A DNA stretch of 50,149 nt from an uncultured Bacteroidaceae bacterium (lineage in GTDB: Bacteria; Bacteroidota; Bacteroidia; Bacteroidales; Bacteroidaceae): positions 1 to 50,149 of the forward strand of contig CALUJO010000015.1 of the NCBI GenBank assembly GCA_944320965.1, in the 5' to 3' direction. The position numbers were made by a program, and so were the translations under genes. Shown here one piece after another: positions 21,818 through 36,091 of the stretch. How positions within the stretch are numbered: position 1 is the stretch's first letter; every line of letters begins with the position of its first letter. The notes beneath the pieces were generated by a model that had not been told where the DNA came from, did not search any database, and saw nothing but the letters and a program-made list of their open reading frames with translations.

Positions 21818-22117
21818 ATGAAACTGATAGATAACAATATACAGAAGATTGTCGCTTTGTGCAAGAAGTACAAGGTCAACAAATTGTTTGTGTTCGGCTC
21901 AATACTTACTGACCGCTTTAACGAGGATAGCGATGTGGACTTGGTTGTTTCTTTCAACAAGGCAGAGATAAGCGACTATTTCGACAACTATTTTGATTTC
22001 AAATACTCGTTGGAGGAATTGTTCGGCAGGAATGTTGATTTGCTGGAAGAACAGACTATAAAGAATCCATATCTGAAAAAGAATGTGGATGCAACCAAAG
22101 CATTGATATATGGATGA
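21818..22117 (+). CDS. MntA-type nucleotidyltransferase antitoxin
   Basis: The 99-residue product is a minimal nucleotidyltransferase. It has the motif GS-x10-DxD at Gly27-Ser28 and Asp39/Asp41 (FGSILTDRFNEDSDVDL). In characterised MntA/HepT systems this enzyme transfers AMP to a tyrosine of the HEPN toxin and so silences it. The gene overlaps the HEPN gene by 8 bp, which couples their expression. The -7 element at 21790 gives a short leader. The pair is a cargo-type gene set often found in accessory regions. Confidence 0.9.
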   Translation: MKLIDNNIQKIVALCKKYKVNKLFVFGSILTDRFNEDSDVDLVVSFNKAEISDYFDNYFDFKYSLEELFGRNVDLLEEQTIKNPYLKKNVDATKALIYG

Positions 22118-22451
22118 TTTGATAAAGAAGCACTTGCAAGATATTTTGACAGCCATTGAAGAAATAGAAAGTTTCTTTGGTGACAAACCTAAGTTATTTG
22201 AAGACTTTTACAGTAATCTCTGTCTTAGACGGGCTACTGAAAGGAACATAGAGATTATAGGCGAAGCGATGAACAGAATCTTAAAGACTGATAGAAATAT
22301 AGCTATCACCAATTCGCGCAAAATAGTGGATGCAAGAAACTATATCATTCATGGATATGACAGCTTATCGGCTGATATTCTTTGGAGCATGGTTATCAAT
22401 CATCTGCCGAAACTGAAAGATGAAGTAACGGCTTTATTAGATAATAAGTGA
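22110..22451 (+). CDS. HepT-type HEPN ribonuclease toxin
   Basis: The 113-residue all-helical protein belongs to the DUF86/HepT family. The catalytic motif is complete: RNYIIHGY, where Arg76 and His81 form the RX4H nuclease site and Tyr83 is at the X-Y position that is AMPylated by MntA in the known system (RX4HXY). 'LRRATERNIEIIGEAMNRI' is the conserved second helix. It would cleave RNA, probably tRNA, when freed from its antitoxin. It is translated from ATG 22110 inside the end of the mntA-like gene. There is no sign of truncation. Confidence 0.9.
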   Translation: MDDLIKKHLQDILTAIEEIESFFGDKPKLFEDFYSNLCLRRATERNIEIIGEAMNRILKTDRNIAITNSRKIVDARNYIIHGYDSLSADILWSMVINHLPKLKDEVTALLDNK

Positions 22452-22627
22452 TATTTTTATTTATACAGAAACATACATATTAAGATTACGAAGGCTTTGA
22501 CTGCAAAATATTTATTGCTTAAAGCCCTCTATTTTATATCTTTCATGTAGCAAAGGTTTCAATATAGGAGACAGAGTCATTGACATTGCTGTTTTGTAGA
22601 AACATATAAACGATTGCTTTGAAGGCA

Positions 22628-22712
22628 CTCTTTTGTCCTGTAAATCCTCCGGTTTATCCCCAAAAATGCCGGTTAGTCCATAAAAAATCCCCGTTGGTCT
22701 ATCTTTTTTGCG
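22628..22712 (+). repeat. Direct-repeat array (four units, about 21 bp) abutting the efflux promoter
   Basis: Units CTCTTTTGTCC (22628), CCGGTTTATCC (22649), CCGGTTAGTCC (22669) and CCGTTGGTCT (22691) are spaced 21, 20 and 22 bp. Each is followed by an A/T block (TAAATCC, AAAATGC, AAAATCC, TTTTGCG). The last unit touches the -33 element TTTG (22707-22710). Length, spacing and location suit stacked activator sites. Unit 4 resembles the CCGTTnGTC half-site reported for the LytTR protein AlgR. Confidence 0.65.
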
Positions 22713-22738
22713 CCACGAAAGTTCTCATTCTATTTTTG
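22707..22738 (+). promoter_or_regulatory. Complete promoter of the tolC-macAB-LytTR operon
   Basis: TTTG (22707-22710) and TATTTTTG (22731-22738) are separated by exactly 20 nt, a full consensus match. Transcription would start near 22743, about 24 nt before ATG 22767. Confidence 0.85.
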
Positions 22739-22766
22739 TTTCAGAAAATGATAAGAATATATAGTT

Positions 22767-24140
22767 ATGAGAATCTTGAAAAATGGCATTTCCTTTTTGT
22801 TTTGCGTTGCTGTTGCTGGTGTTGCCTGTGCGCAGGATGCAGACAGTATAGCTGTGATGCCTGAGCAGTGGACATTGCAGCAGTGCATAGATTATGCTTT
22901 GGAAAAGAACATATCCATACAGAAGAACAGGATAAATGTTCAGAGTGCTGACATTGATACGAAGACGGCAAAGGCAGCATTCTTCCCAAGTCTAAATGCA
23001 TCTGTAAGCCAGCGAGTTGTAAACAATCCGTACAGCGACAGCAATACGATTATTGATGGAGACCGTATAACTACCAACAATTCCAAGACAAGCTACAACG
23101 GAAGTTATGGTATTGATGCCTCATGGAATCTGTTCAATGGCGGAAAGCGCATGAATACATTGAAACAGCAGAAGGTGGCACAGAACATAGCCGAGCTTAC
23201 TGTTGAAGAAAGTGAGAATTCAATCCAGGAAAGTCTTGTACAGATGTATATACAGATACTTTATGCAAACGAAGCAGTTGCTATCAATGAAGCGACGGTT
23301 GAGGTAAGCAAGGCGGAATGTGACAGGGGCAAGGAACTTCTTGCTGCCGGAAGTATTTCGAATGCCGACTATGCCCAGCTTGAAGCTCAGTACAGCAACA
23401 ACAAGTATATGCTTGTAACGTCGCGTGCAACTCTTCAGGATTACAAATTGCAACTGAAACAGCTCCTTGAAATAGACGGAGATCTTGATATAGATATAGT
23501 TGTACCTGATATTGATGACAGCGATGTGCTTGTTCCCCTGCCTCAGAAATCGGATGTTTACCAGACTGCACTAATAATACGTCCGGAGATTGAGTCGGGA
23601 GAGTTGAATGTCGAACATTCTGACCTTAACATAAGCATTGCAAAGGCAGGATATTACCCGTCTCTCAGTCTGAGTGCAGGAATCGGCACTAATCACACAA
23701 ACGGTAATGACTTTACATTTTCCGAGCAGGTAAAAACAAATTGGAACAATTCAATGGGAATTACCTTGAGTATTCCGCTTTACACTAACCGTCAGACAAG
23801 AAGTGGTGTGCAGAAAGCAAAGCTACAAAAGCAGACATACGAACTGGATTTGCTTGACAAGCGTAAAGCCCTTTACAGAACAATTGAAAGTTACTGGCTT
23901 GATGCAAACAGTGCCCAGCAACAGTATGCTGCAGCTGTTGAAAAATTGAAAAGCGCAAAAGTCAGCTATGATTTGGTCAGTGAGCAGTTTAATATGGGTA
24001 TGAAGAATACGGTAGAGCTGCTGACAGAGAAGAACAATTATCTGAATGCACAGCAGGAAGTGCTGCAGGCAAAATATATGTCGGTTATGAATATTCTGAT
24101 GCTTGATTTCTATAGCGGCAAACCGATGGAGTTAAATTGA
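22767..24140 (+). CDS. TolC-family outer membrane efflux channel
   Basis: Outer-membrane duct of a MacAB-type efflux pump, 457 residues. It has a signal peptide (MRILKNGISFLFCVAVAGVACAQ), then the standard opening 'WTLQQCIDYALEKNISIQKNRINVQSA'. Two OEP repeats with long helices are visible (about 100-230 and 300-440). 'AKAAFFPSLNASVSQRV' and 'AKAGYYPSLSLSAGIG' are the paired strand motifs of TolC-family barrels. It is the first gene of a six-gene operon (channel, MacA, ATPase, permease, kinase, regulator) whose promoter lies next to a 21-bp repeat array. Confidence 0.93.
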   Translation: MRILKNGISFLFCVAVAGVACAQDADSIAVMPEQWTLQQCIDYALEKNISIQKNRINVQSADIDTKTAKAAFFPSLNASVSQRVVNNPYSDSNTIIDGDRITTNNSKTSYNGSYGIDASWNLFNGGKRMNTLKQQKVAQNIAELTVEESENSIQESLVQMYIQILYANEAVAINEATVEVSKAECDRGKELLAAGSISNADYAQLEAQYSNNKYMLVTSRATLQDYKLQLKQLLEIDGDLDIDIVVPDIDDSDVLVPLPQKSDVYQTALIIRPEIESGELNVEHSDLNISIAKAGYYPSLSLSAGIGTNHTNGNDFTFSEQVKTNWNNSMGITLSIPLYTNRQTRSGVQKAKLQKQTYELDLLDKRKALYRTIESYWLDANSAQQQYAAAVEKLKSAKVSYDLVSEQFNMGMKNTVELLTEKNNYLNAQQEVLQAKYMSVMNILMLDFYSGKPMELN

Positions 24141-24166
24141 TAATAATAAGTAAAGCATATAACAGT

Positions 24167-25384
24167 ATGAAGACAAAGAAAATTATTGTAGTAATAGTTA
24201 TTCTTGCGGTTGTCGGGATTGTAGTTTGGCTGTTTACCGGTAAGGGCGGCAGACCTACAGTTTCTTTCAGCACCGTAAAGGTAGAAAAGGGTGATATATC
24301 CAGTTTCGTTACGGCAACCGGAACAGTAGAACCAATGACAGAAGTTGAGGTCGGTACACAGGTGTCAGGTATTATTGATAAACTTTATGCCGATTATAAC
24401 TCTGTAGTAAAACAGGGACAGCTTATTGCCGAGATGGATAAGGTTACATTGCAGAGTGAACTGGCATCCGCCCAGGCAGTATATGACGGAAACAAGGCAG
24501 AGTATGAGTACCAGCAGAAGAATTACGAGAGAAGCAAGGCTCTGCACGAGAAAAAAATGATAAGCGATACTGACTATGAAACAGCTCTTTACAATTATCA
24601 GAAATCTAAGAGCAACTATGACAACAGTGCCGCTTCACTTGCAAAGGCAAAAAGAAATCTTTCTTATGCAACAATCACTTCACCTATTGACGGCGTAGTA
24701 ATTGACCGTGCTGTTGAAGAAGGACAGACAGTTGCAGCAGGATTTGAGACTCCGACCCTGTTCACAATTGCGGCAGACCTTACTCAGATGCAGGTAGTTG
24801 CCGATGTTGATGAGGCTGATATAGGCGGTGTAGAGGAAGGACAGCGTGTGACATTTACGGTTGATGCTTATCCGGGAGATGTATTTGAAGGCAAGGTTAC
24901 ACAAATCCGTTTGGGTAGCAGCTCTTCCAGCACGTCAGGAACTTCAACAACAACTGAAAGTGTAATTACCTATGAAGTGGTTATTTCGGCTGCAAACCCT
25001 GATTTGAAATTGAAACCGCGTCTGACAGCAAATGTGACTATCTATACTCTTGACAAGAAGGATGTACTGAGTGTTCCTTCAAAGGCTCTACGTTTCAATC
25101 CTGAAGCTCCTTTGGTTACAGAAGATGATGTTGTCAATGATTGCGAAGGTAAAATAAAACTTTGGACAAAGCAGGGAAATGTTTTTACTGCACATCCTGT
25201 TAAAGTTGGAATTTCAAATGGTATAAGAACTGAAATCATTGGCGGTATTGCCGAAGGAACAGATGTTGTGAGCGAAGCTGTTGTAGGAAGTATTGAACCT
25301 TCTCCCGGAATGTCTGGTGATACTGCAGAAAGAAGTCCTTTCATGCCGGGCCCTCCGGGAAGCAGAAACAAAAAGTCAAAATAA
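24167..25384 (+). CDS. MacA-like periplasmic adaptor protein
   Basis: The 405-residue membrane fusion protein links MacB to the TolC-like channel. One N-terminal membrane anchor (KKIIVVIVILAVVGIVVWLF, about 3-23) precedes the lipoyl half-motif 'VSGIIDKLYADYNSVVKQGQLIAEMD' (about 66-92), a coiled-coil hairpin (about 95-160) and 'ATITSPIDGVVIDRAVEEGQTV' (about 165-187), then beta-barrel and membrane-proximal domains. A serine-threonine-rich loop (SSSSSTSGTSTTTES) interrupts the barrel domain, and the C-terminus is proline- and glycine-rich. ATG 24167 was chosen over an in-frame TTG at 24137, which overlaps the upstream gene. Confidence 0.92.
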   Translation: MKTKKIIVVIVILAVVGIVVWLFTGKGGRPTVSFSTVKVEKGDISSFVTATGTVEPMTEVEVGTQVSGIIDKLYADYNSVVKQGQLIAEMDKVTLQSELASAQAVYDGNKAEYEYQQKNYERSKALHEKKMISDTDYETALYNYQKSKSNYDNSAASLAKAKRNLSYATITSPIDGVVIDRAVEEGQTVAAGFETPTLFTIAADLTQMQVVADVDEADIGGVEEGQRVTFTVDAYPGDVFEGKVTQIRLGSSSSSTSGTSTTTESVITYEVVISAANPDLKLKPRLTANVTIYTLDKKDVLSVPSKALRFNPEAPLVTEDDVVNDCEGKIKLWTKQGNVFTAHPVKVGISNGIRTEIIGGIAEGTDVVSEAVVGSIEPSPGMSGDTAERSPFMPGPPGSRNKKSK

Positions 25385-25396
25385 TAACGGACTGAG

Positions 25397-26143
25397 ATGA
25401 AAAATAAAGTTATTGAATTATTGAATATTAAGCGTAATTTCATTGTCGGGGACGAAACCGTTCATGCGTTGCGTGGAATAACATTCAGTATTGAGGATGG
25501 CGAGTTTGTTACCATAATGGGTACATCCGGTTCCGGTAAATCCACTTTGCTGAATACGCTTGGTTGCCTTGATACTCCCACTTCGGGTGAATACCTGCTT
25601 GACGGGGTGTCAGTCCGTACAATGAGTAAGGCGCAGCGTGCCGTGCTTAGGAACAGAAAGATTGGGTTCGTATTCCAGAACTATAATCTTCTGGCAAAGA
25701 CAACGGCTGTTGAAAATGTAGAACTCCCATTGATGTATAACAGTGCAGTCAGCGCAGCCGAGCGCCATCGTAGGGCTGTTGATGCCCTGATTGCGGTGGG
25801 ACTTGGCGACAGACTTGAACATAAGTCCAATCAGATGTCCGGAGGCCAGATGCAGAGAGTTGCCATTGCCAGGGCATTGGTAAACAATCCTGCCGTAATA
25901 CTAGCCGATGAGGCGACCGGTAATCTTGATACACGTACATCATTTGAGATACTTGTATTGTTTCAGAAACTCCATGCCGAGGGACGTACAATAATATTTG
26001 TAACCCACAATCCGGAAATTGCCCAGTACAGTAGCCGTAATATCCGTTTGCGTGACGGGCATGTTGTTGAAGATGTTGTTAATAAAAATATTCTGTCCGC
26101 TGCCGATGCCCTTGCGGCATTGCCTAAGACGGAAGATGATTAA
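25397..26143 (+). CDS. MacB-type ABC transporter ATPase
   Basis: The 248-residue ATP-binding subunit belongs to the LolD/MacB family. Motifs: Walker [10 protein letters not shown] (about 41-49), Q-loop VFQNYNLL, signature [15 protein letters not shown] (about 147-161) and Walker [13 protein letters not shown] (about 167-178), H-loop FVTHNPE. Unlike E. coli MacB, ATPase and permease are separate chains here, as is common in Bacteroidota. It lies 12 bp after the adaptor gene and 17 bp before the permease gene. It drives mechanotransmission rather than direct membrane transport in the known family. Confidence 0.95.
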
Positions 26144-26160: not shown

Positions 26161-27378
26161 ATGAACTTTACCAATTTATTGAAAATAGCATTCAAGGCTT
26201 TGGTCAACAACAAGATGAGAGCGTTTCTTACGATGCTTGGAATTATCATCGGTGTTGCTTCAGTCATAACTATGCTTGCAATAGGCCAGGGCTCGAAGAG
26301 AAGCATCCAGAAACAGATTTCCGAGATGGGCTCGAACATGATAATGATTCATCCGGGCGGTGATATGCGTGGCGGTATGCGTCGTGATGCTTCCGAGATG
26401 CAGACATTGAAACTGGCTGACTATGAGACCCTTAGGAATGAATGCATGTACCTGTCGGCAATAAGCCCTAACGTGTCTTCTTCCGGACAACTGATTGCGG
26501 GAAACAATAACTATCCGTCATCATTTACCGGAGTCGGACTTGAATATATGGAGATACGTCAGTTGACTGTAGAATATGGCGAGATGTTTACTGAGGCTGA
26601 TATAATTTCTTCTGCCAAGGTCTGTGTCATAGGTAAGACAATAGTTGACAATCTTTTCCTTAACGAAGATCCTATAGGCAAGATTATCCGTTTCAACAAG
26701 GTACCTTTCAGAGTTGTGGGAGTACTGAAATCAAAGGGGTACAACTCTATGGGTATGGACCAGGATGATATTGTTCTTGCTCCTTATTCCACAGTAATGA
26801 AAAGATTGCTTGCGGTACAGCATCTTCAGGGAATCTTTGCTTCGGCATTGACAGAGGATATGACTGAAAATGCGATTGATGAGATTACCGAAATATTGAG
26901 GCGTACACACAAACTGCAGCCAAATGATGACGATGATTTCAATATCCGAAGCCAACAGGAGTTGAGCAGTATGCTGAATTCAACAACCGATATGATGACA
27001 ACTCTTCTTGCTTGTATTGCCGGAATATCGCTTGTAGTTGGCGGTATCGGTATCATGAATATCATGTATGTAAGTGTTACTGAGAGAACACGCGAGATTG
27101 GACTTCGTATGAGTGTTGGTGCCAGAGGCATAGATATTCTTTCGCAGTTCCTGATTGAGGCTGTGCTTATAAGCATTACCGGTGGACTTATTGGAGTTCT
27201 GATAGGATGTGGCGCAAGCTGGGCGGTTAATGCTATTGCAAAATGGCCGGTGTTTGTACAGCCTTGGAGTATCATTCTTTCATTTGGGGTTTGTACTCTT
27301 ACCGGAGTGTTCTTCGGATGGTATCCGGCAAAGAAGGCTGCCGACCTTGATCCTATCGAGGCTATCAGGTATGAATAG
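26161..27378 (+). CDS. MacB-type FtsX-like permease
   Basis: The 405-residue membrane subunit has the MacB layout: N-terminal helix ('MRAFLTMLGIIIGVASVITMLAIGQGSK', about 19-46), a periplasmic MacB_PCD domain (about 50-275), and three C-terminal helices with the FtsX motif 'TERTREIGLRMSVGARGIDILSQFLIEAVLIS'. The ending 'GWYPAKKAADLDPIEAIRYE' is diagnostic for this family. The substrate (drug, peptide, lipoprotein or siderophore) is not predictable. It precedes the sensor kinase by 51 bp, which contains a possible internal promoter. Confidence 0.94.
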   Translation: MNFTNLLKIAFKALVNNKMRAFLTMLGIIIGVASVITMLAIGQGSKRSIQKQISEMGSNMIMIHPGGDMRGGMRRDASEMQTLKLADYETLRNECMYLSAISPNVSSSGQLIAGNNNYPSSFTGVGLEYMEIRQLTVEYGEMFTEADIISSAKVCVIGKTIVDNLFLNEDPIGKIIRFNKVPFRVVGVLKSKGYNSMGMDQDDIVLAPYSTVMKRLLAVQHLQGIFASALTEDMTENAIDEITEILRRTHKLQPNDDDDFNIRSQQELSSMLNSTTDMMTTLLACIAGISLVVGGIGIMNIMYVSVTERTREIGLRMSVGARGIDILSQFLIEAVLISITGGLIGVLIGCGASWAVNAIAKWPVFVQPWSIILSFGVCTLTGVFFGWYPAKKAADLDPIEAIRYE

Positions 27379-27429: not shown

Positions 27430-28497
27430 ATGAATATTTTATCAGAATCCAAAATGCGCTCAATAGAGCTATTAATCCATATATTTGTTTGGGGATTGAT
27501 ATTTGCTTTTCCTTTCCTGCTGTTCAGCAGGGATGGATGGAGTGACGGATGGTGGTATCATGCCTTGCGGATGTTTGTGATGCAACTATCCTTTGTTCTG
27601 GTTTTTTATATCAATTATCTTTTTATAATCCCTAAATTTCTCTTTAAAGGGAGATATAGCAAATATATCCTAGTTAATATCTTTATAATAGTTTCCATGC
27701 TTCTTTTGATGCATATATGGCAAGAGTTCTGTATGCATTATTTTTCAGATATTGATATTGAAAAACCAGAAGGGATAGGGCCTCCAAAATGGATCTTTAC
27801 TGTCAGGGATGCAATAACGATGATTCTTGTCATTGGCTTGAGTGTGGCACTGAAGATGAGCCGGAAATGGGTACATACGGAAAATGCTAGGCGAGAGGCT
27901 GAGAAGAACAGAACAGAGGCGGAACTGAAGAATTTGAGAAATCAGATAAATCCACACTTTCTGCTGAATACACTTAACAATATATATGCTCTTATTGCGT
28001 TTGATACGGATAGGGCACAGGAAGCCGTTCAGGAGTTAAGCCGTCTTTTAAGATATGTACTTTATGATAACCAGCAGGAGTTTGTTGATTTGAATAAAGA
28101 GGCAGACTTTATAAGGAATTATATAGAACTTATGAAGATACGACTTTCTTCAAATGTAAGGCTTGATACCGATATAGATATTGATGCTTCTAATACTGCG
28201 AGAATTGCCCCATTGATATTTATTTCACTGATTGAAAATTCGTTCAAACACGGTATTTCGCCTATGTCGCCGAGTTTCGTTTCAATAAGTCTTTCGGAAT
28301 CTGACGGAGAAGTGACGTGTCAGACAGTTAATTCAAACTTCCCTAAGAATATTGAAGACAAAAGCGGTAGCGGAATTGGTCTTCAGCAGGTGGAGAAAAG
28401 ACTTGAATTGATTTATCCGGGAAAATATACATGGGAGCACGGAATAAGAAATAACGGAAAGGAATATTACTCCCGACTTGTAATTAAAACCAGATGA
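27430..28497 (+). CDS. LytS/YehU-type sensor histidine kinase
   Basis: The 355-residue product has about four N-terminal membrane helices (residues 10-150), a coiled linker ('HTENARREAEKNRTEAELKNLRNQ') and the His_kinase domain of the LytS class with 'NQINPHFLLNTLNNIYAL', where His176 is the likely phosphorylated residue. The ATPase part shows the N-box 'LIENSFKHG' and G-box 'SGSGIGLQQVEKRLELIYP'. No extracellular sensor domain of size is present, so the membrane region itself may sense. The start could be ATG 27430 or ATG 27454 (MRSIELLIHIF). The stop overlaps the regulator start by 4 bp (ATGA). Confidence 0.92.
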   Translation: MNILSESKMRSIELLIHIFVWGLIFAFPFLLFSRDGWSDGWWYHALRMFVMQLSFVLVFYINYLFIIPKFLFKGRYSKYILVNIFIIVSMLLLMHIWQEFCMHYFSDIDIEKPEGIGPPKWIFTVRDAITMILVIGLSVALKMSRKWVHTENARREAEKNRTEAELKNLRNQINPHFLLNTLNNIYALIAFDTDRAQEAVQELSRLLRYVLYDNQQEFVDLNKEADFIRNYIELMKIRLSSNVRLDTDIDIDASNTARIAPLIFISLIENSFKHGISPMSPSFVSISLSESDGEVTCQTVNSNFPKNIEDKSGSGIGLQQVEKRLELIYPGKYTWEHGIRNNGKEYYSRLVIKTR

Positions 28498-29234
28498 TTA
28501 TGACTCTTGACTGTATTATAGTTGACGATGAGCCTTTGGCATTGGAACTTATGGAAAGCTATGTCAAACGTACGCCCTTTCTTAATCTTGTAGGAAAGTA
28601 TTCAAGTGCCGTGCAGGCAATGGGAGATATTGCAGGCAAGAATATTGATGTTATGTTTCTTGACATACAGATGCCTGAATTGAATGGTCTTGAATTCTCC
28701 AAGACTGTTGACAGGCATACCAAAATAATATTTACTACAGCTTTCGGACAGTATGCAATAGACGGTTATAAGGTAAATGCACTTGATTATCTGCTTAAGC
28801 CTGTTTCATATGTTGATTTTCTGAGAGCTGCAAATAAGGCTGCCGAATGGTTTGAGGTTTATAAGACTGGTGAGCCAAGTATCCAACAGCCGGTTTTACA
28901 ATCAAACCGTGATTATATTTTTGTCAAAAGTGATTATAAACTTGTAAGAGTTGACCTTAAAGATATATTGTATGTTGAAGGATTGAAGGACTATGTCAAG
29001 ATTTACATTGAAGGACAGCCCAAACCGATAATCTCGTTAATGACAATGAAGGCTATGGAAGAGATGCTTCCAACCGAAAAGTTCTTGCGCATTCACCGTT
29101 CTTTTATTGTAAATAAGGAACAGATTAAGGTCGTTGACCGCGGACGTATTGTATTCGGAAAAGAATATATTCCTGTAGGCGATAACTATAAGCAGGCTTT
29201 TCAGGCATTTATTGATGGGGGTACGGTCAAGTAG
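28494..29234 (+). CDS. LytTR-family response regulator
   Basis: The 246-residue regulator has an N-terminal receiver domain ('LDCIIVDDEPLAL', phospho-acceptor Asp57 in 'MFLDIQMPELNG', Lys in 'LLKPVSY') and a C-terminal LytTR DNA-binding domain (about 145-240: 'DYIFVKSDYKLVRVDLKDILYVEGLKDYVKI' and 'FLRIHRSFIVNKEQI'). LytTR domains bind direct repeats spaced about two helical turns apart. Arrays with that spacing flank this operon (22628-22712 and 29329-29400), so it may control its own operon and the giant gene downstream. ATG 28500 is an alternative start. Confidence 0.93.
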   Translation: MIMTLDCIIVDDEPLALELMESYVKRTPFLNLVGKYSSAVQAMGDIAGKNIDVMFLDIQMPELNGLEFSKTVDRHTKIIFTTAFGQYAIDGYKVNALDYLLKPVSYVDFLRAANKAAEWFEVYKTGEPSIQQPVLQSNRDYIFVKSDYKLVRVDLKDILYVEGLKDYVKIYIEGQPKPIISLMTMKAMEEMLPTEKFLRIHRSFIVNKEQIKVVDRGRIVFGKEYIPVGDNYKQAFQAFIDGGTVK

Positions 29235-29328: not shown

Positions 29329-29400
29329 TTTACGCATTGACACCTGCTTTTACATATTGAGACCTCGGTTTTGACATGTTGCTACTTCTTGTTTTTTATA
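29329..29400 (+). repeat. Direct-repeat array (about 20-23 bp) upstream of the giant gene
   Basis: ATTGACAC (29336), ATTGAGAC (29356) and GTTGCTAC (29378) recur at 20 and 22 bp. Each is followed by a T-rich block with TTTACAT, TTGACAT and TTTTATA at 29349, 29371 and 29394 (22 and 23 bp apart), and TTTACGC at 29329. The last block ends 6 bp before the -7 element. Confidence 0.55.
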
Positions 29401-29449: not shown

Positions 29450-32400
29450 ATGAGAGTAAAACTACTTTGTCTTTTTATGCTTGTGTTTGGAGTGACGCAG
29501 GCTCGTGTTGTTACTTTTACGCCTGAAAATATGGCGGGTAACGGAGAATTGTCCGTGATACTTGACGATATGATTGCTATGGAGGTGTCCGATGGATTTT
29601 GTACTGTTGATATGTTAACCCTGCGTAATGGCGGGGCTACACTATCTTTCACATCTAATGATGAACCTATTACTGGTATACGTATAATTGTTGTACCCGG
29701 TGACCCTGCCGACCGTATAAGTGGGAACGGTTATATTGCTTCCGGCGAGATTGGTACTTGGACTGGTGATGCAATGGATGTTACCCTTGTCAACAATGCG
29801 TCTGATTGGGTAGGCATTAAAAAAATAGTAGTGTGTACCAATGGTTCGGATTGGGAAGATGAAGGAGAAGATAATGTTGAACCGCCGCTTGTAGAAGAAA
29901 GAAAATATGTTTTTGATTGTGGAGGTACTATTGATGGTACTGACTCGCTGGTAGTTGATACCGATGTGGCAACCTTTATTCAACGTAAAGCCAATGGACT
30001 AAATAAACCTGCTTATGTCAATCCGTGGCGTATATATACAAATAATACTGTGACTATACGTATGAAGGATGGTTACGCATTGAAAGATGTGAAAATATTA
30101 CTCGCGGATGGGTATGGTGACCCTGAATTGGAATATTCGGAAATAGTAACCGAATCGTTTGTTGAAAAATTTAAAATCATTTCAGATTTACCTGAAAACT
30201 TGAATATCTTCACCATTACTAATAAGGGAAAACAGACTCGCTGGCAGCAGATAGAAATCACTTATGTTAAGGGGATGACGGATGCAACGGTTGTGATTTC
30301 ACCGCGTGCGATAGATTTCGGTACTATTAGTACGGGTAATAAAAACACCCGCAACATTACTGTGTTTGCGCAGAAATCAACATCTATAACTGGAGTTAGT
30401 ATTTCTGAACCGTTTTCTGTGTCAGACTTTACTCCACCAGTTTCACTTGACGAGAACGAAAGTTATACTCTTTCGCTTGATGTTTTGTCGCAAACAAAAG
30501 ATTCATTTGAAGATACATTGCGTATAGCCTTTACCGATACTGTTTGTAAAGTGCCGGTAAAGGCTACGGTGGTAGACGGTATGTTCGGTGCATCTGAAGG
30601 GGCTTTCCCTTCAAGCCTGGGACACTTGTATGATGTGAACGGTGATGGACGTATGGAATATTTCGTAGGTGCATACCCCAACGTAGAACAATACACGTTT
30701 GACGGATTGCTTATGAAGACTATTCCTACAGGAAATTATCTTTTCTCTCTTGACGACATGAATAATGATGGCATACTTGAGATAGTGTGTGACCAAAGTG
30801 GTGATAAGGAAGACCCCGGTACTGTGTCTGTTCACGCTCTTGACGGTACGTTACAGAATTCTTTTCCGGTAGCATTGAACAGTAAAACGTATACTGTAAT
30901 GCTTGATGCAAATAGTGATGGACGGTCAGATTTCTTTATGCAGGTACAGGATGATAGATATTGGGCTGGTACACAGTATATTGATAAATATAAGAACTTT
31001 ATATATTATCAGCAGCCGGACGGTTCGTTTATGCGTAAGGAAATACGTGTACTTGACGACCCGAGTGAAATAGAAAATGCAATGTTTGCCCAGTATGGTG
31101 CCAATGCAATAGTTACAAAACCGGTTAATTTTAGTGGAGTATCTTTGGCCAAAAGTCCTTCTGTTCCTTGGCGTGCCGGTTCAGCGACTGAGAATACAAT
31201 CATGCGTAAGACTCGTTCTGCCGAACTGTTTTATGGTAATACCTCTCCTACTGCGGTGGACGTGAATATGGACGGATACCCAGACTTACTTAACTTGAAC
31301 AATGGTGATGCCTTGTTAAGTATAGGTGATAGCACTTATTATTACGGTTCGTTTGAAGGACAGACTACAGTTAAGGACTTGAACGGGGATGGTATGCCTG
31401 ATTTTGTATTGTATGACGAGGACAGTCGTACTGTTACCCTATATATCTATGAGGGAAATAACAGATTTATGAAACAGACTCTGATGCAGAACTTTAATAT
31501 CACTGGTATATATACTTTTGACTTTGACCACGATGGCGATGTTGATATCCTGCTTCCGTTTGATTATACCGAAGATTCACAATATGCCTACCTTGTATTC
31601 TTTGAGAATCAGGGAGATAATATATTCAAGAAACGTGAACGTTCGTTTGATTACGGTCGTGCGTTGAGCTTTATAGGCGGAGGTGACGTTGATAACGACG
31701 GGCGTTTTGAGGTGGTAACTCGTGAAGACAGGAACATATTTCTAATTGATTGTGAAACAAATTTTGAGATTGGAGCCGAGTCGGGAGTTATAGCAACAGT
31801 ATCGGAAGATGAAACTTCTTACTATGAAGGGGACTATCTTTTTAATTTCGGCGACTTTGATAACGACGGGCGAACTGAATGGTGGGCAGGCGTGAACTTT
31901 GATTCTGATTGGAGTCATACTACACCTTATAGTGTTCGCGAGTCTGGCCGGTTCGACGCTGATAAACTTAACACCGCCCCTCAGAAGATGAGTGCTCCTT
32001 CTTATATATATGACGCAGCAATAAACATGTTGCGTGTGGAATGGAAAGTAGGTAAAGATGCGGAAAACTCGTCATGCGATCTTACTTATGCGTTGCGTAT
32101 TGGAACTGAACCTGGTAAGGGAGATATTTGGTATGCTTATGCTGACGCTAATGGACGTCGTTTGCGCCCCGGTCATGGCAATGCCGGTCATAATACTTAT
32201 TCTTTAGTATCTACCGCCGGGTGGTCAAAAGGAACTTACTATATGGCTGTTCAGGCAATTGACGCTAATGGGCTGGGAGGAGCCTGGTCGGACGAGGTGA
32301 CCTTTGACTACCCGGGGCTTTCCGCTTCGTTCCAAGCATCAACCTATCACATGAATGTGATGGATACGCTCACCCTTTTCACTGTGGCTGACTACAATGC

Positions 32401-35400
32401 TTCCAATACCTATATCTGGGATTACGGTGAGGGGGGACGTGAGGTGAGCCGCGGAGGCAACCGCTTGCAGGTGGCGTACGATTATGCCGGTCGTAAGACC
32501 GTCAGTCTCTCGGTAATCGATGCCGATGGCATGATGGCAACTAGTGAAGAGGTTTCATTAGAGGTCTATCCCTTCCGCTGGGTAGCCGACTCTATACCCG
32601 ACCCCGGAGAATACTGGAGTTATTCGACCTATTCATCTGCAGGGCGTTATTTTGATATCGACATGAACGGCTCGCTTGATGTGGTGGGTACTGCTGTAAT
32701 CAATTCGAGTCAGTCACTGACGGGTGTATTCTCCAACGAGGAGAATAACAACCGTTTCAAGAAGGTTGGACGCACCTACAATTCCGATCTTAACCCCGAT
32801 TTAGAGAGGATTATTCCTATAGACTTCAACATGGACGGTATCCCAGATTTTATGGGGAATACAAATAAAGGTAATTTGTTTGTTAATGAGGGCAGTTTTG
32901 ACTTTTCCTATTCGACCGAGACCTATACGGTGCCACCAAAACAAAGCACTTATGATAAAGAGATTACCGAATATGACTTGCACGATATATACAGCCGTTT
33001 TGACTTCGACAATGATGGTTATCTTGATGTAGTTTATGGTGGATTTCATTCTCTTCGTTTAGGTATTAACCGGGGCGACAACCTCAGTTTTGACAGGCAT
33101 AACCTTCCAGACCCTGATTCTGATGATAATATAGAATGGGCTATGGGACAATGGATTGATTTTAACCGTGACGGATATATGGATTTTTGGTATCGTGAAA
33201 CTGATAGTAATCAGAAGGCAGTATGGAGGTTCATTGTTTATTTGAACAATGGTGATGGTACGTTTGAACGTAAAAATGTATATGAGTATCCGTATCAGAA
33301 TGGTGAGTTCTCTCCGTTCTTCTTTGATTTGAACAACGATGGCTGGCAGGATTTGATATGGAGCGTTATGCCCGATTACGATGGAGGCGTGTTGGAAACG
33401 GGTGGTACCCATATTGTATTGGGTGATGCGTCAATGTCCTATGTAGGTAAGAAGGAGGTTGTTCTTGAAGGATACGCTTTCAATGGAGAGTTTTACTGTT
33501 ATGGTTGCGGTCACGAAAGTAGACGCTTATACGATTTGGACAACAACGGCTGGCTCGACCTGCCGGTGATGGTGGCCGATGGTTTTAGGACAAGCCCAAG
33601 CGGCTATGTATCCTTGCAAACGGCCACAGGGCTGCTCTATCTTTACCCCGATTGGAAAACCGTGTTTGAAAAAGGGGCTGAATCTCCTGTCGACGAAATG
33701 CCTTTTGCCGACCTGAATGGCGACGGCTTGCCCGATGGAAATGAGATGATTATGGTAACCAAACATACGAATACTGCTCCGGAAGCACCAAAGAATGTGC
33801 GTGCCGTGCAGACCGAAGATGGTGTCCTTCTGCAGTGGGATGATGCACTGGATGCAGAAACACCTGCAGTTCATATGCGCTATAATGTAAGCTTGAAGCG
33901 CAAGGGAGCAAAGGGAGAGAACAGTTATGTGCTTTCGCCAATGAACGGAGGCAGTGATGTTGCAGCTGCCATACCAGCCTTTAGAGGCTATCGTAATTGT
34001 ACCCGCATGGTGGTGCCAATCCGTCGCTTTGAGGTAGGGCAGGAGTATGAATTGAAAGTGCAGGCAATTGACCTATGGAATGAACATTCGCCTTTCTCCG
34101 AGACTTTTACTTTCCGAATGGAGAGTCAGGTAAACATTGATGCACCGGCTGAAACATGTACGGAACGTGTCGTAACTGTTACTTACAAAGGTACCGAGAG
34201 TGGAACTCCGCAGTGGTCGGCAGGTGATGGAGGTGAAGTGTTTGAAGCCGATGGCAATTCTGTAGATATGTTGTGGAAAACTCCTGGATTGAAAACTATT
34301 AAAGTTACAGTTGGAGGTGTGGCTTCTGAACGTACTATTATGGTAAATGAGATGCCTGATTTATCAATAGATTTCCCGGAAGCGATATTGATTAACGCAG
34401 CAGTGCATTTCGATTTGCCGGATGTTTTTGCAGACTCGAGCAAACGTACATATTTGCGCGGTTCATTTTATCATAATGGGCAAGAAGAACTGCCGATGGA
34501 CAGTTATTCTGGAACTGGGGATCCAATAACTTATACAGAAGGTATCTTTGCCCTGGCACGGAAGACAGGAACGACCGAAGTTCGTTTGGCTTTGCTTGAA
34601 GCTGGCAGATACTGGCTGGATATGTGTTATGACGATCCGGTTTGTGGTGAGGTTAGCGCACGTACCTGGTTTGATGTGGTAGATGCGCAACCGGAGATTG
34701 CAATTGTAGGTGTTGAAGGCGGAAAGAATGTGGTACAGTGGAATGTTGAGGCGGCTCAGGCTTCTGGGGTAGATTTCAAAACAGTTCGTATATATAAAGA
34801 AACAGGTTCTACAAATAATTTTGTATTGATAGGAGAGGCAGAGCTTTTGGATGGCCGTTACGTAGATTTGTCTTCTGACCCGACTGTACGCAAGAGCCGT
34901 TATGCGATTGATATGTGTACTGCAGACGGTATGGTTTCCGGACGCAGTGCCGTACATGGCAGTGTGCATATTATGCTGAACCAAGGTGTTGCTTCTAATA
35001 GTGTTAACATTGTTTGGACTCCTTACGAGGGCGGAATAGTTGACCAGTACACAATCCTGCGAGGAACTTCGCCGGATGACCTTGAAGTGCTGGCTACTGC
35101 TTCAGGTTATGAAACAAGTTATACCGACCAGACCAAACCTGACGGTGATGTGTATTATGCTTTACAGTATACTAATCTTTACAGTAATACTTGGGGACAA
35201 AAAACTGCATCTCCAGAACTTCGTAGCGCAGCAAAGGTTCAATCACTGTTTGATGGTCGTTCTAATGTTGTTAATGCAAACAGTTCTGTGAATATTACCA
35301 TGGCTGAGTCGCTTTATGTTATGGTTCTGGAAAATAGTGCAACTCTTACACCTGAACAGACTTCTTTGCATTTGTATGCCGAAGTATTGCCGGCAACTGC

Positions 35401-36091
35401 TACATATAAGCGTGTAAACTGGCAGGTATTATCAGGCGAAGATTTGGCAACGGTAGATGAAACTGGTGTTCTTGCTTATACCGGCAATGGCGATAATGGT
35501 ATTGTACGCGTTCAGGCTTCTACTATTGATGGCTCGAACATAAAAGTGGTGAAAGAGATTTCTGTCAGCGGTTTCAATCAGGGGGGCGACAATGTACCGG
35601 TAAGCGGTATTCGTATCAGCGCGCCTTACACACAGCTTACTCCATCCAGGAATACAGTGCAGCTTGAAGTTGAAATACTTCCTGCCAACGCAACCGAAAA
35701 AGGCTATTATTGGGAGGTTGTTAGTGGCTTGCAGGTAGTAGAAGTGTCTGCTACAGGTTTGGTGACAGCAAAAGGTACGGATGGTTCAGCTACAGTACGT
35801 GCTGTTTCAATTGATGATAGTGGGGCATATGGTGAAATAATTATTACTGCTTCCGGTTTCGGACAGTCTGGAGTTGACAATCTTATAGCTCTGGCACATG
35901 TGTATACCAATGATCAGGCTATATATGTTGAAAATGCCGAAGGTCTTTCAATTGATATGTTTGACATTACCGGTCGTCATCTGAAGCATGTAGATGAAGC
36001 TGCTGCGCAGGAAATATTTTATAACTTGGAAACAGGCGTTTATCTTTTGTATATTGAAGGAAAAGCTTGTTGTAAAGTATTGGTTGAATAA
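29450..36091 (+). CDS. Giant secreted multidomain protein with FG-GAP/VCBS repeats and T9SS sorting domain
   Basis: The 2213-residue product has a signal peptide (MRVKLLCLFMLVFGVTQA). Order of modules: two beta-rich domains (about 20-280), an Ig-like domain (about 282-380), first beta-propeller of FG-GAP/VCBS units (about 385-830), fibronectin III-like (about 840-955), PKD-like (about 955-1040), second propeller (about 1045-1440), fibronectin III-like (about 1443-1560), PKD-like (about 1565-1640), further beta modules, two BIG2 domains (about 1950-2140) and a T9SS type A sorting domain ('SIDMFDITGRHLKHV ... GVYLLYIEGKACCKVLVE'). About 15 calcium-type motifs such as DVNGDGRMEYF and DFDNDGYLDVV mark the propellers. 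It probably acts at the cell surface in adhesion or glycan binding; no catalytic domain was seen. Confidence 0.9.
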   Translation: MRVKLLCLFMLVFGVTQARVVTFTPENMAGNGELSVILDDMIAMEVSDGFCTVDMLTLRNGGATLSFTSNDEPITGIRIIVVPGDPADRISGNGYIASGEIGTWTGDAMDVTLVNNASDWVGIKKIVVCTNGSDWEDEGEDNVEPPLVEERKYVFDCGGTIDGTDSLVVDTDVATFIQRKANGLNKPAYVNPWRIYTNNTVTIRMKDGYALKDVKILLADGYGDPELEYSEIVTESFVEKFKIISDLPENLNIFTITNKGKQTRWQQIEITYVKGMTDATVVISPRAIDFGTISTGNKNTRNITVFAQKSTSITGVSISEPFSVSDFTPPVSLDENESYTLSLDVLSQTKDSFEDTLRIAFTDTVCKVPVKATVVDGMFGASEGAFPSSLGHLYDVNGDGRMEYFVGAYPNVEQYTFDGLLMKTIPTGNYLFSLDDMNNDGILEIVCDQSGDKEDPGTVSVHALDGTLQNSFPVALNSKTYTVMLDANSDGRSDFFMQVQDDRYWAGTQYIDKYKNFIYYQQPDGSFMRKEIRVLDDPSEIENAMFAQYGANAIVTKPVNFSGVSLAKSPSVPWRAGSATENTIMRKTRSAELFYGNTSPTAVDVNMDGYPDLLNLNNGDALLSIGDSTYYYGSFEGQTTVKDLNGDGMPDFVLYDEDSRTVTLYIYEGNNRFMKQTLMQNFNITGIYTFDFDHDGDVDILLPFDYTEDSQYAYLVFFENQGDNIFKKRERSFDYGRALSFIGGGDVDNDGRFEVVTREDRNIFLIDCETNFEIGAESGVIATVSEDETSYYEGDYLFNFGDFDNDGRTEWWAGVNFDSDWSHTTPYSVRESGRFDADKLNTAPQKMSAPSYIYDAAINMLRVEWKVGKDAENSSCDLTYALRIGTEPGKGDIWYAYADANGRRLRPGHGNAGHNTYSLVSTAGWSKGTYYMAVQAIDANGLGGAWSDEVTFDYPGLSASFQASTYHMNVMDTLTLFTVADYNASNTYIWDYGEGGREVSRGGNRLQVAYDYAGRKTVSLSVIDADGMMATSEEVSLEVYPFRWVADSIPDPGEYWSYSTYSSAGRYFDIDMNGSLDVVGTAVINSSQSLTGVFSNEENNNRFKKVGRTYNSDLNPDLERIIPIDFNMDGIPDFMGNTNKGNLFVNEGSFDFSYSTETYTVPPKQSTYDKEITEYDLHDIYSRFDFDNDGYLDVVYGGFHSLRLGINRGDNLSFDRHNLPDPDSDDNIEWAMGQWIDFNRDGYMDFWYRETDSNQKAVWRFIVYLNNGDGTFERKNVYEYPYQNGEFSPFFFDLNNDGWQDLIWSVMPDYDGGVLETGGTHIVLGDASMSYVGKKEVVLEGYAFNGEFYCYGCGHESRRLYDLDNNGWLDLPVMVADGFRTSPSGYVSLQTATGLLYLYPDWKTVFEKGAESPVDEMPFADLNGDGLPDGNEMIMVTKHTNTAPEAPKNVRAVQTEDGVLLQWDDALDAETPAVHMRYNVSLKRKGAKGENSYVLSPMNGGSDVAAAIPAFRGYRNCTRMVVPIRRFEVGQEYELKVQAIDLWNEHSPFSETFTFRMESQVNIDAPAETCTERVVTVTYKGTESGTPQWSAGDGGEVFEADGNSVDMLWKTPGLKTIKVTVGGVASERTIMVNEMPDLSIDFPEAILINAAVHFDLPDVFADSSKRTYLRGSFYHNGQEELPMDSYSGTGDPITYTEGIFALARKTGTTEVRLALLEAGRYWLDMCYDDPVCGEVSARTWFDVVDAQPEIAIVGVEGGKNVVQWNVEAAQASGVDFKTVRIYKETGSTNNFVLIGEAELLDGRYVDLSSDPTVRKSRYAIDMCTADGMVSGRSAVHGSVHIMLNQGVASNSVNIVWTPYEGGIVDQYTILRGTSPDDLEVLATASGYETSYTDQTKPDGDVYYALQYTNLYSNTWGQKTASPELRSAAKVQSLFDGRSNVVNANSSVNITMAESLYVMVLENSATLTPEQTSLHLYAEVLPATATYKRVNWQVLSGEDLATVDETGVLAYTGNGDNGIVRVQASTIDGSNIKVVKEISVSGFNQGGDNVPVSGIRISAPYTQLTPSRNTVQLEVEILPANATEKGYYWEVVSGLQVVEVSATGLVTAKGTDGSATVRAVSIDDSGAYGEIIITASGFGQSGVDNLIALAHVYTNDQAIYVENAEGLSIDMFDITGRHLKHVDEAAAQEIFYNLETGVYLLYIEGKACCKVLVE

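Follow-up and report, generated by a model that had tools for sequence, protein, structure and literature searches.

The LytTR consensus core is GTTN[AG][TG], and AlgR sites read CCGTTnGTC. According to PMC2766830, LytTR domains bind repeats of 9 bp with a 12-bp spacer. Such sites have two or more direct repeats with about 21 bp between repeat centers, and spacers of 11 to 13 bp are seen (PMC2766830, PMC6193735). In the autoactivating LytTR systems of S. mutans, the repeats lie 4-11 bp before the -35 box (PMC6193735). The described direct-repeat operators, those of AgrA, SilA and HdrR/BrsR among others, have repeats spaced about 21 bp apart just upstream of the promoter and a regulator gene nearby, and most are autoregulated (PMC2766830, PMC6193735, PMC4227749). 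Operons of this kind have also been predicted in Bacteroides. In the LRS-like LytTR operons, repeats of the form TCCGGTATTCA-11 bp-ACCGGAAATCA were predicted, separated by 11 bp from the TAnnTTTG-type promoter that follows them, and autoregulation was presumed (PMC6193735, Table 3).

Here we describe an array of direct repeats in a 50,149-nucleotide stretch of contig CALUJO010000015.1 from an uncultured Bacteroidaceae bacterium (the window). The array lies in a gap (22452-22766) that follows two genes of the nucleotidyltransferase/HepT type (21818-22451). On the other side of the gap is a plus-strand operon of six genes for an ABC-type pump, the last of which codes for a LytTR response regulator. 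From the sequence comparisons below we predict, with a probability of roughly 0.78, that this regulator binds the array and activates its own operon.

The array shares with the published operators its direct repeats about 21 bp apart, a distance of 6 bp to the -33 box (within the range of 4-11 bp given in PMC6193735) and the co-occurrence of a LytTR regulator gene. It differs from them in having three to four units instead of two and a TTnRTC core followed by an A tract, and in serving a Bacteroidales pump operon with TTTG/TAnnTTTG promoters. The LRS-like operons, as tabulated, resemble the window units in the 22-bp period of their 11-bp repeats and in the CCGG start, but they combine a membrane-bound LytTR protein with an NfeD/DUF2154 membrane protein, whereas the window has a soluble response regulator together with a kinase and a MacAB pump. 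That LytTR proteins of Bacteroides may autoregulate has thus been predicted before; the present case adds a type of operon, a consensus and conservation of this depth. A search of the main texts of mostly open-access papers returned no description of this operator, and the word BTnc049, the name of a small RNA discussed below, was absent from those main texts.

The pump operon and the repeat array

The genes of the operon are as follows.

22767..24140, + strand: TolC-type outer membrane channel (OEP; PF02321)
24137..25384, + strand: MacA-like periplasmic adaptor, HlyD-type (PF16576; TIGR01730 above cut-off)
25397..26143, + strand: ABC transporter ATPase (PF00005)
26161..27378, + strand: MacB-like permease (PF12704, PF02687)
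27430..28497, + strand: LytS-type histidine kinase (PF06580, His_kinase)
28494..29234, + strand: response regulator with a LytTR DNA-binding domain (PF00072, PF04397), predicted from its co-occurrence with the array to bind it

As in MacAB-TolC systems, the adaptor, the ABC ATPase, the MacB-type permease and the outer membrane channel are all present in one operon. In contrast with those systems, the ATPase and the permease are separate proteins, and a dedicated kinase-LytTR pair belongs to the operon. The scores stayed below the NCBIfam equivalog cut-offs (155.7 of 342 bits for MacA and 288.9 of 966 bits for MacB), and we therefore class the pump as MacAB-like and not as MacAB proper. The pair directly upstream of the array (21818-22451) consists of an MNT-like nucleotidyltransferase and a HepT-like protein, and is likely a toxin-antitoxin pair.

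The array and the promoter comprise the following elements.

22628..22638, + strand: unit 1 (distal), CTCTTTTGTCC; unit-profile score 6.9 at 22632
22649..22659, + strand: unit 2, CCGGTTTATCC; unit-profile score 6.0 at 22653
22669..22679, + strand: unit 3, CCGGTTAGTCC; unit-profile score 12.6 at 22673; aligns with TTnGTCGAnAAAAA of the relatives
22690..22700, + strand: unit 4 (proximal), CCCGTTGGTCT; aligns with GTCTAT of the relatives
22707..22710, + strand: -33 box, TTTG, 6 bp past the proximal unit; a TTG-type box is present in 31 of 55 promoters of relatives
22731..22738, + strand: -7 box, TATTTTTG; a TAnnTTT-type box is present in 31 of 55 promoters of relatives

An earlier note on this DNA had proposed four units at a 21-bp period ending at a promoter. 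All four were found at the starts that it gave, as was the promoter TTTG-N20-TATTTTTG downstream of them (TTTG at 22707-22710, TATTTTTG at 22731-22738). The period of about 21 bp holds for the array as a whole, but it is not uniform: in the common register TTNRTCY the units start at 22632, 22653, 22673 and 22694, giving steps of 21, 20 and 21 bp. With regard to the LytTR core, units 2 to 4 read GTTTAT, GTTAGT and GTTGGT, and unit 1 has no such word. Although the AlgR site is similar to the window's CCGTTGGTC unit, the family does not conserve the letters that precede TTnRTC. That units 2 and 3 begin with CCGG is a local feature, and the conserved part in relatives is TTnRTC followed by the A tract. 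Both promoter boxes agree with the TTTG / TAnnTTTG promoter that PMC7366714 deduced in B. fragilis.

The two strands of the window hold 53 and 51 TTNRTCY words, and the four-unit chain is the sole run of at least three at steps of 20-22 bp on either strand. Dinucleotide shuffling of the whole window (n = 300) produced a run of at least three in 0 cases and a run of two in 128, and when the gap alone (22452-22766) was shuffled 20,000 times, at least two units in a run arose in 73 cases, at least three in 1 and four in 0. As the word class was picked post hoc, after the array had been seen, the conservation tests weigh more than these shuffles.

Conservation of the array and its link to lytTR

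The LytTR protein had a match at E <= 0.001 in 58 of 61 genomes, its own counted, and at E <= 1e-75 in 131 of the 399 genomes of the family. We sampled 115 lytTR surroundings in addition to the window, 116 loci in all; in one set of 15, some are weaker matches, 39-51% identical. The whole six-gene operon is present at 85 of them, the window counted, and the other 31, which were cut or without a full adjoining operon, were dropped.

An unsupervised one-site-per-sequence search of 57 non-redundant promoters returned the array in the form TTnGTCGAnAAAAA ... GTCTAT ... TTTTTG, with a motif log-likelihood of 710.6 against a maximum of 159.2 among 24 shuffled sets. Along 55 promoters the unit score peaked solely at -21, 0 and +21, where fractions of 0.42, 0.93 and 0.11 exceeded 5; at every remaining offset the fraction was at most 0.04. 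In 29 of the 31 promoters with a TAnnTTT-type box, this box is at an identical 34-bp distance from the proximal GTC. A third, upstream unit is common in relatives, and its counterpart in the window is unit 2, which is 1 bp off their register. The window's fourth, at -41/-42, is not common: the relatives show no unit-score peak at -42, the position of unit 1, and the distal unit is thus a local addition, particular to the window's lineage.

Each of the 85 promoters was then scored by a profile from whose training set it and any similar sequences had been left out, and the same scores on DNA farther upstream served as a control (95th percentile 3.9, maximum 6.6). The earlier note had singled out, as the outcome that would speak against it, an array missing where relatives keep the operon. 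Instead, 81 of the 85 held-out operons exceeded the control 95th percentile, and 79 exceeded the control maximum, which the window array surpassed with a score of 12.8. Positives also came from other families of the order (L040, 26.0; L048, 23.9; L056, 16.4; L047, 11.8; L057, 8.0). The pump regulator spans Bacteroidaceae and occurs at loci of at least five other families of the order.

Six operons did not rise above the control maximum, among them three in genus g6, where 2 of 5 were positive, and one in g23. L087 and L088 were misses by this measure when held out, and a profile trained with them scores them at 29.9 and 17.2; the start codon of L087 was placed too far downstream in the scoring. 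Four pump promoters of genus g6 (L126, L127, L128 and L131) have little or nothing of the usual array and instead share a motif of the CTACTAA type at its place, which suggests an altered operator. In the window's own genus, genome G002 has a degenerate array only, with a held-out score of 11.9, and G001 and G003 were cut by contig ends. Among named genomes, 4 of 58 loci have the pump operon. Three of them (L151, L152 and L154), on contigs outside the training set, keep the array with scores of 33.5, 40.5 and 13.2, and the fourth, L201, is apparently the G002 contig already used.

The array could follow the regulator gene or the pump. For comparison we took 60 genomes not listed with a lytTR orthologue. 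A MacB relative at E <= 1e-60 is present in 35 of them; 20 of these loci were fetched and two without a usable pump start were dropped, leaving 18. None of these 18 macAB operons had the array, compared with 81 of the 85 operons with lytTR. The array thus goes with the lytTR gene, a co-conservation that the earlier note had named as support. The 18 operons come mostly from other genera, so that the link is partly confounded by descent. The best score among them was 3.3, below the cut, for an operon that carries a more distant kinase and LytTR protein (L244, 45%); another locus (L234) ends 150 bp past macB, and a linked lytTR is possible there.

Both pump operons found apart from lytTR (2/2) keep the array, with scores of 26.7 in G016 and 28.3 in G028. 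In G016, lytTR is about 48 kb from the pump operon. In G028 (L252, L034), pump and kinase are on one contig, with the array at the pump, and the lytTR orthologue is on another, without an adjoining kinase match. At lytTR loci without an adjoining pump an array above 6.6 stood at the head of the kinase operon in 10 of 29, compared with 4 of 29 control stretches, a signal that is strong in L063, L099 and L097 and weak overall; two of the 31 partial loci (L037 and L044), cut by contig ends, were excluded from the 29.

Predicted control of the operon

These comparisons support the earlier note's interpretation of the array as a predicted LytTR operator serving autoactivation. Regulator binding, the direction of control and the signal of the kinase are matters that we infer, and it is position alone that leads us to prefer activation over repression. 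The kinase would phosphorylate the regulator on sensing something linked to the pump. The regulator would then bind adjacent units, which are about two helical turns apart, along a single side of the helix. Touching RNA polymerase from its place on the proximal unit, it would raise transcription of pump, kinase and regulator together. The distal fourth unit would add cooperativity, and the outcome would be a narrow positive-feedback circuit. The operator consensus, TTnGTCGAnAAAAA repeated at intervals of about 21 bp up to the -33 box, is testable.

As to the signal, bile salts were considered, but the operons named in the B. thetaiotaomicron data (PMC10994844, PMC11078008) could not be matched to the pump operon. 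Passages in PMC12596196 and PMC10861873 yielded no signal for the operon.

A sequence-only model built from 35 relatives, the window's genus excluded, found the window array with an E value of 9.2e-6, the next place in the genome having 0.08. It also found the array of the congener G004 (9.7e-6) and had no match at that of G002. There was no second significant site for this model in the window's genome, an assembly about 89% complete in which weak sites would escape. The regulatory circuit thus looks narrow in this genome, and a single-target feedback circuit is likely.

It is unlikely, in our estimate, that the array is a LytTR operator used mainly by another LytTR regulator of the genome, or shared by several. 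The LytTR query has five other matches in the window's genome, and some other LytTR operons of relatives have a similar array ahead of their kinase gene (L063, 27.1; L280, before a His_kinase gene), so close paralogues may read similar units. On the other side, the array tracks the orthologue of this particular lytTR and is missing from the 18 macAB operons of genomes without it, and the window's genome has no second significant site. Slightly less probable again is that the operon's own regulator, bound to the array, keeps the operon repressed as long as the kinase is inactive. Such a role would suit a proximal unit just 6 bp from the -33 box and near-consensus -7 or -33 boxes, with which the basal promoter could work alone; yet LytTR direct repeats at a distance of 4-11 bp from a -35 box downstream go with positive autoregulation in PMC6193735, and here the -7 box and the start site are free of unit overlap.

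We regard it as very improbable that the repeats are not an operator at all and came about by chance, terminate transcription of the gene pair upstream or act as an RNA element. The gap does follow a same-strand HepT/nucleotidyltransferase pair and is a possible place for a terminator, but single-strand folding was no better than in shuffles (z 0.24), a terminator-like site was looked for in the gap and none was found, and conservation together with fixed phasing excludes chance. Readings as a palindrome, a terminator or an RNA element were dropped.

Further sites and the small RNA BTnc049

Downstream of lytTR, several of 84 scanned loci have another array with its promoter, no more than about 60 bp past the stop codon. 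Behind that second array, Rfam family RF04179 (BTnc049) was matched in L072, L103 and L031 (5 loci searched; gathering score 81.9 bits). The same operator and promoter stand before BTnc049 at L072:8266-8463 and also in L031, L075, L080, L082, L085, L089, L103, L104 and L110; in L282 and L283 (about 1500-1720), located from the array side, the same operator precedes a weaker BTnc049 relative. In several relatives this arrangement directly follows lytTR, and in others it is elsewhere in the genome.

With a profile trained solely on pump promoters, an array above 6.6 was found at 16 of 39 BTnc049 copies beside lytTR. Among 40 copies fetched from other places, 5 had such an array, 3 of the 23 whose genome has the lytTR orthologue and 2 of the 17 whose genome does not, compared with 2 of 40 control stretches. 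A universal array at BTnc049 is ruled out by these counts. The RNA has the wider distribution, many of its copies being without the array, so the link between the two is lineage-specific. Across 399 genomes, lytTR (E <= 1e-75) and BTnc049 (E <= 0.001) were both present in 95, lytTR only in 36, the RNA only in 42 and neither in 226 (Fisher p 7e-29), a co-occurrence that is confounded by descent.

The window itself has no Rfam match to BTnc049, and the best score in its genome is 21.3 bits against the gathering score of 81.9; that weak hit (L291) was rejected, as by eye it looks like the end of a coding frame. For BTnc049 in relatives, the LytTR protein is a candidate regulator. We give about even odds to a broader scheme, in which a kinase-LytTR circuit would be dedicated to a MacAB-type pump throughout Bacteroidales and its operator would have been placed repeatedly before BTnc049 in Bacteroides-like relatives as a second arm; the window's lineage, without that arm, would have added a fourth unit to a single-target autoactivation switch.

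Relatives often show one or two further array-like sites, in a count made with a model whose training had included most of the pump promoters of those genomes. One is before a His_kinase gene (L280), one between a DUF4270 gene and a Kelch-repeat gene that diverge from each other (L281) and one before an AraC-type regulator gene (L285). These are candidate further members of the regulon or candidate sites of paralogous LytTR proteins.

The window holds a second set of three direct repeats past the operon, at 29336-29386: ATTGACACC, ATTGAGACC and GTTGCTACT, with steps of 20 and 22 bp. A TATATTTG box follows directly. We rejected it as an instance of the same operator, as the unit is different and the profile gives no match (best score past lytTR 1.0). 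Its pair pattern occurs at this place and at only 2 others across 2.9 Mb of fetched loci. The set lies upstream of a 2213-aa open reading frame (29450-36091) with FG-GAP, Big_2 and PKD matches.
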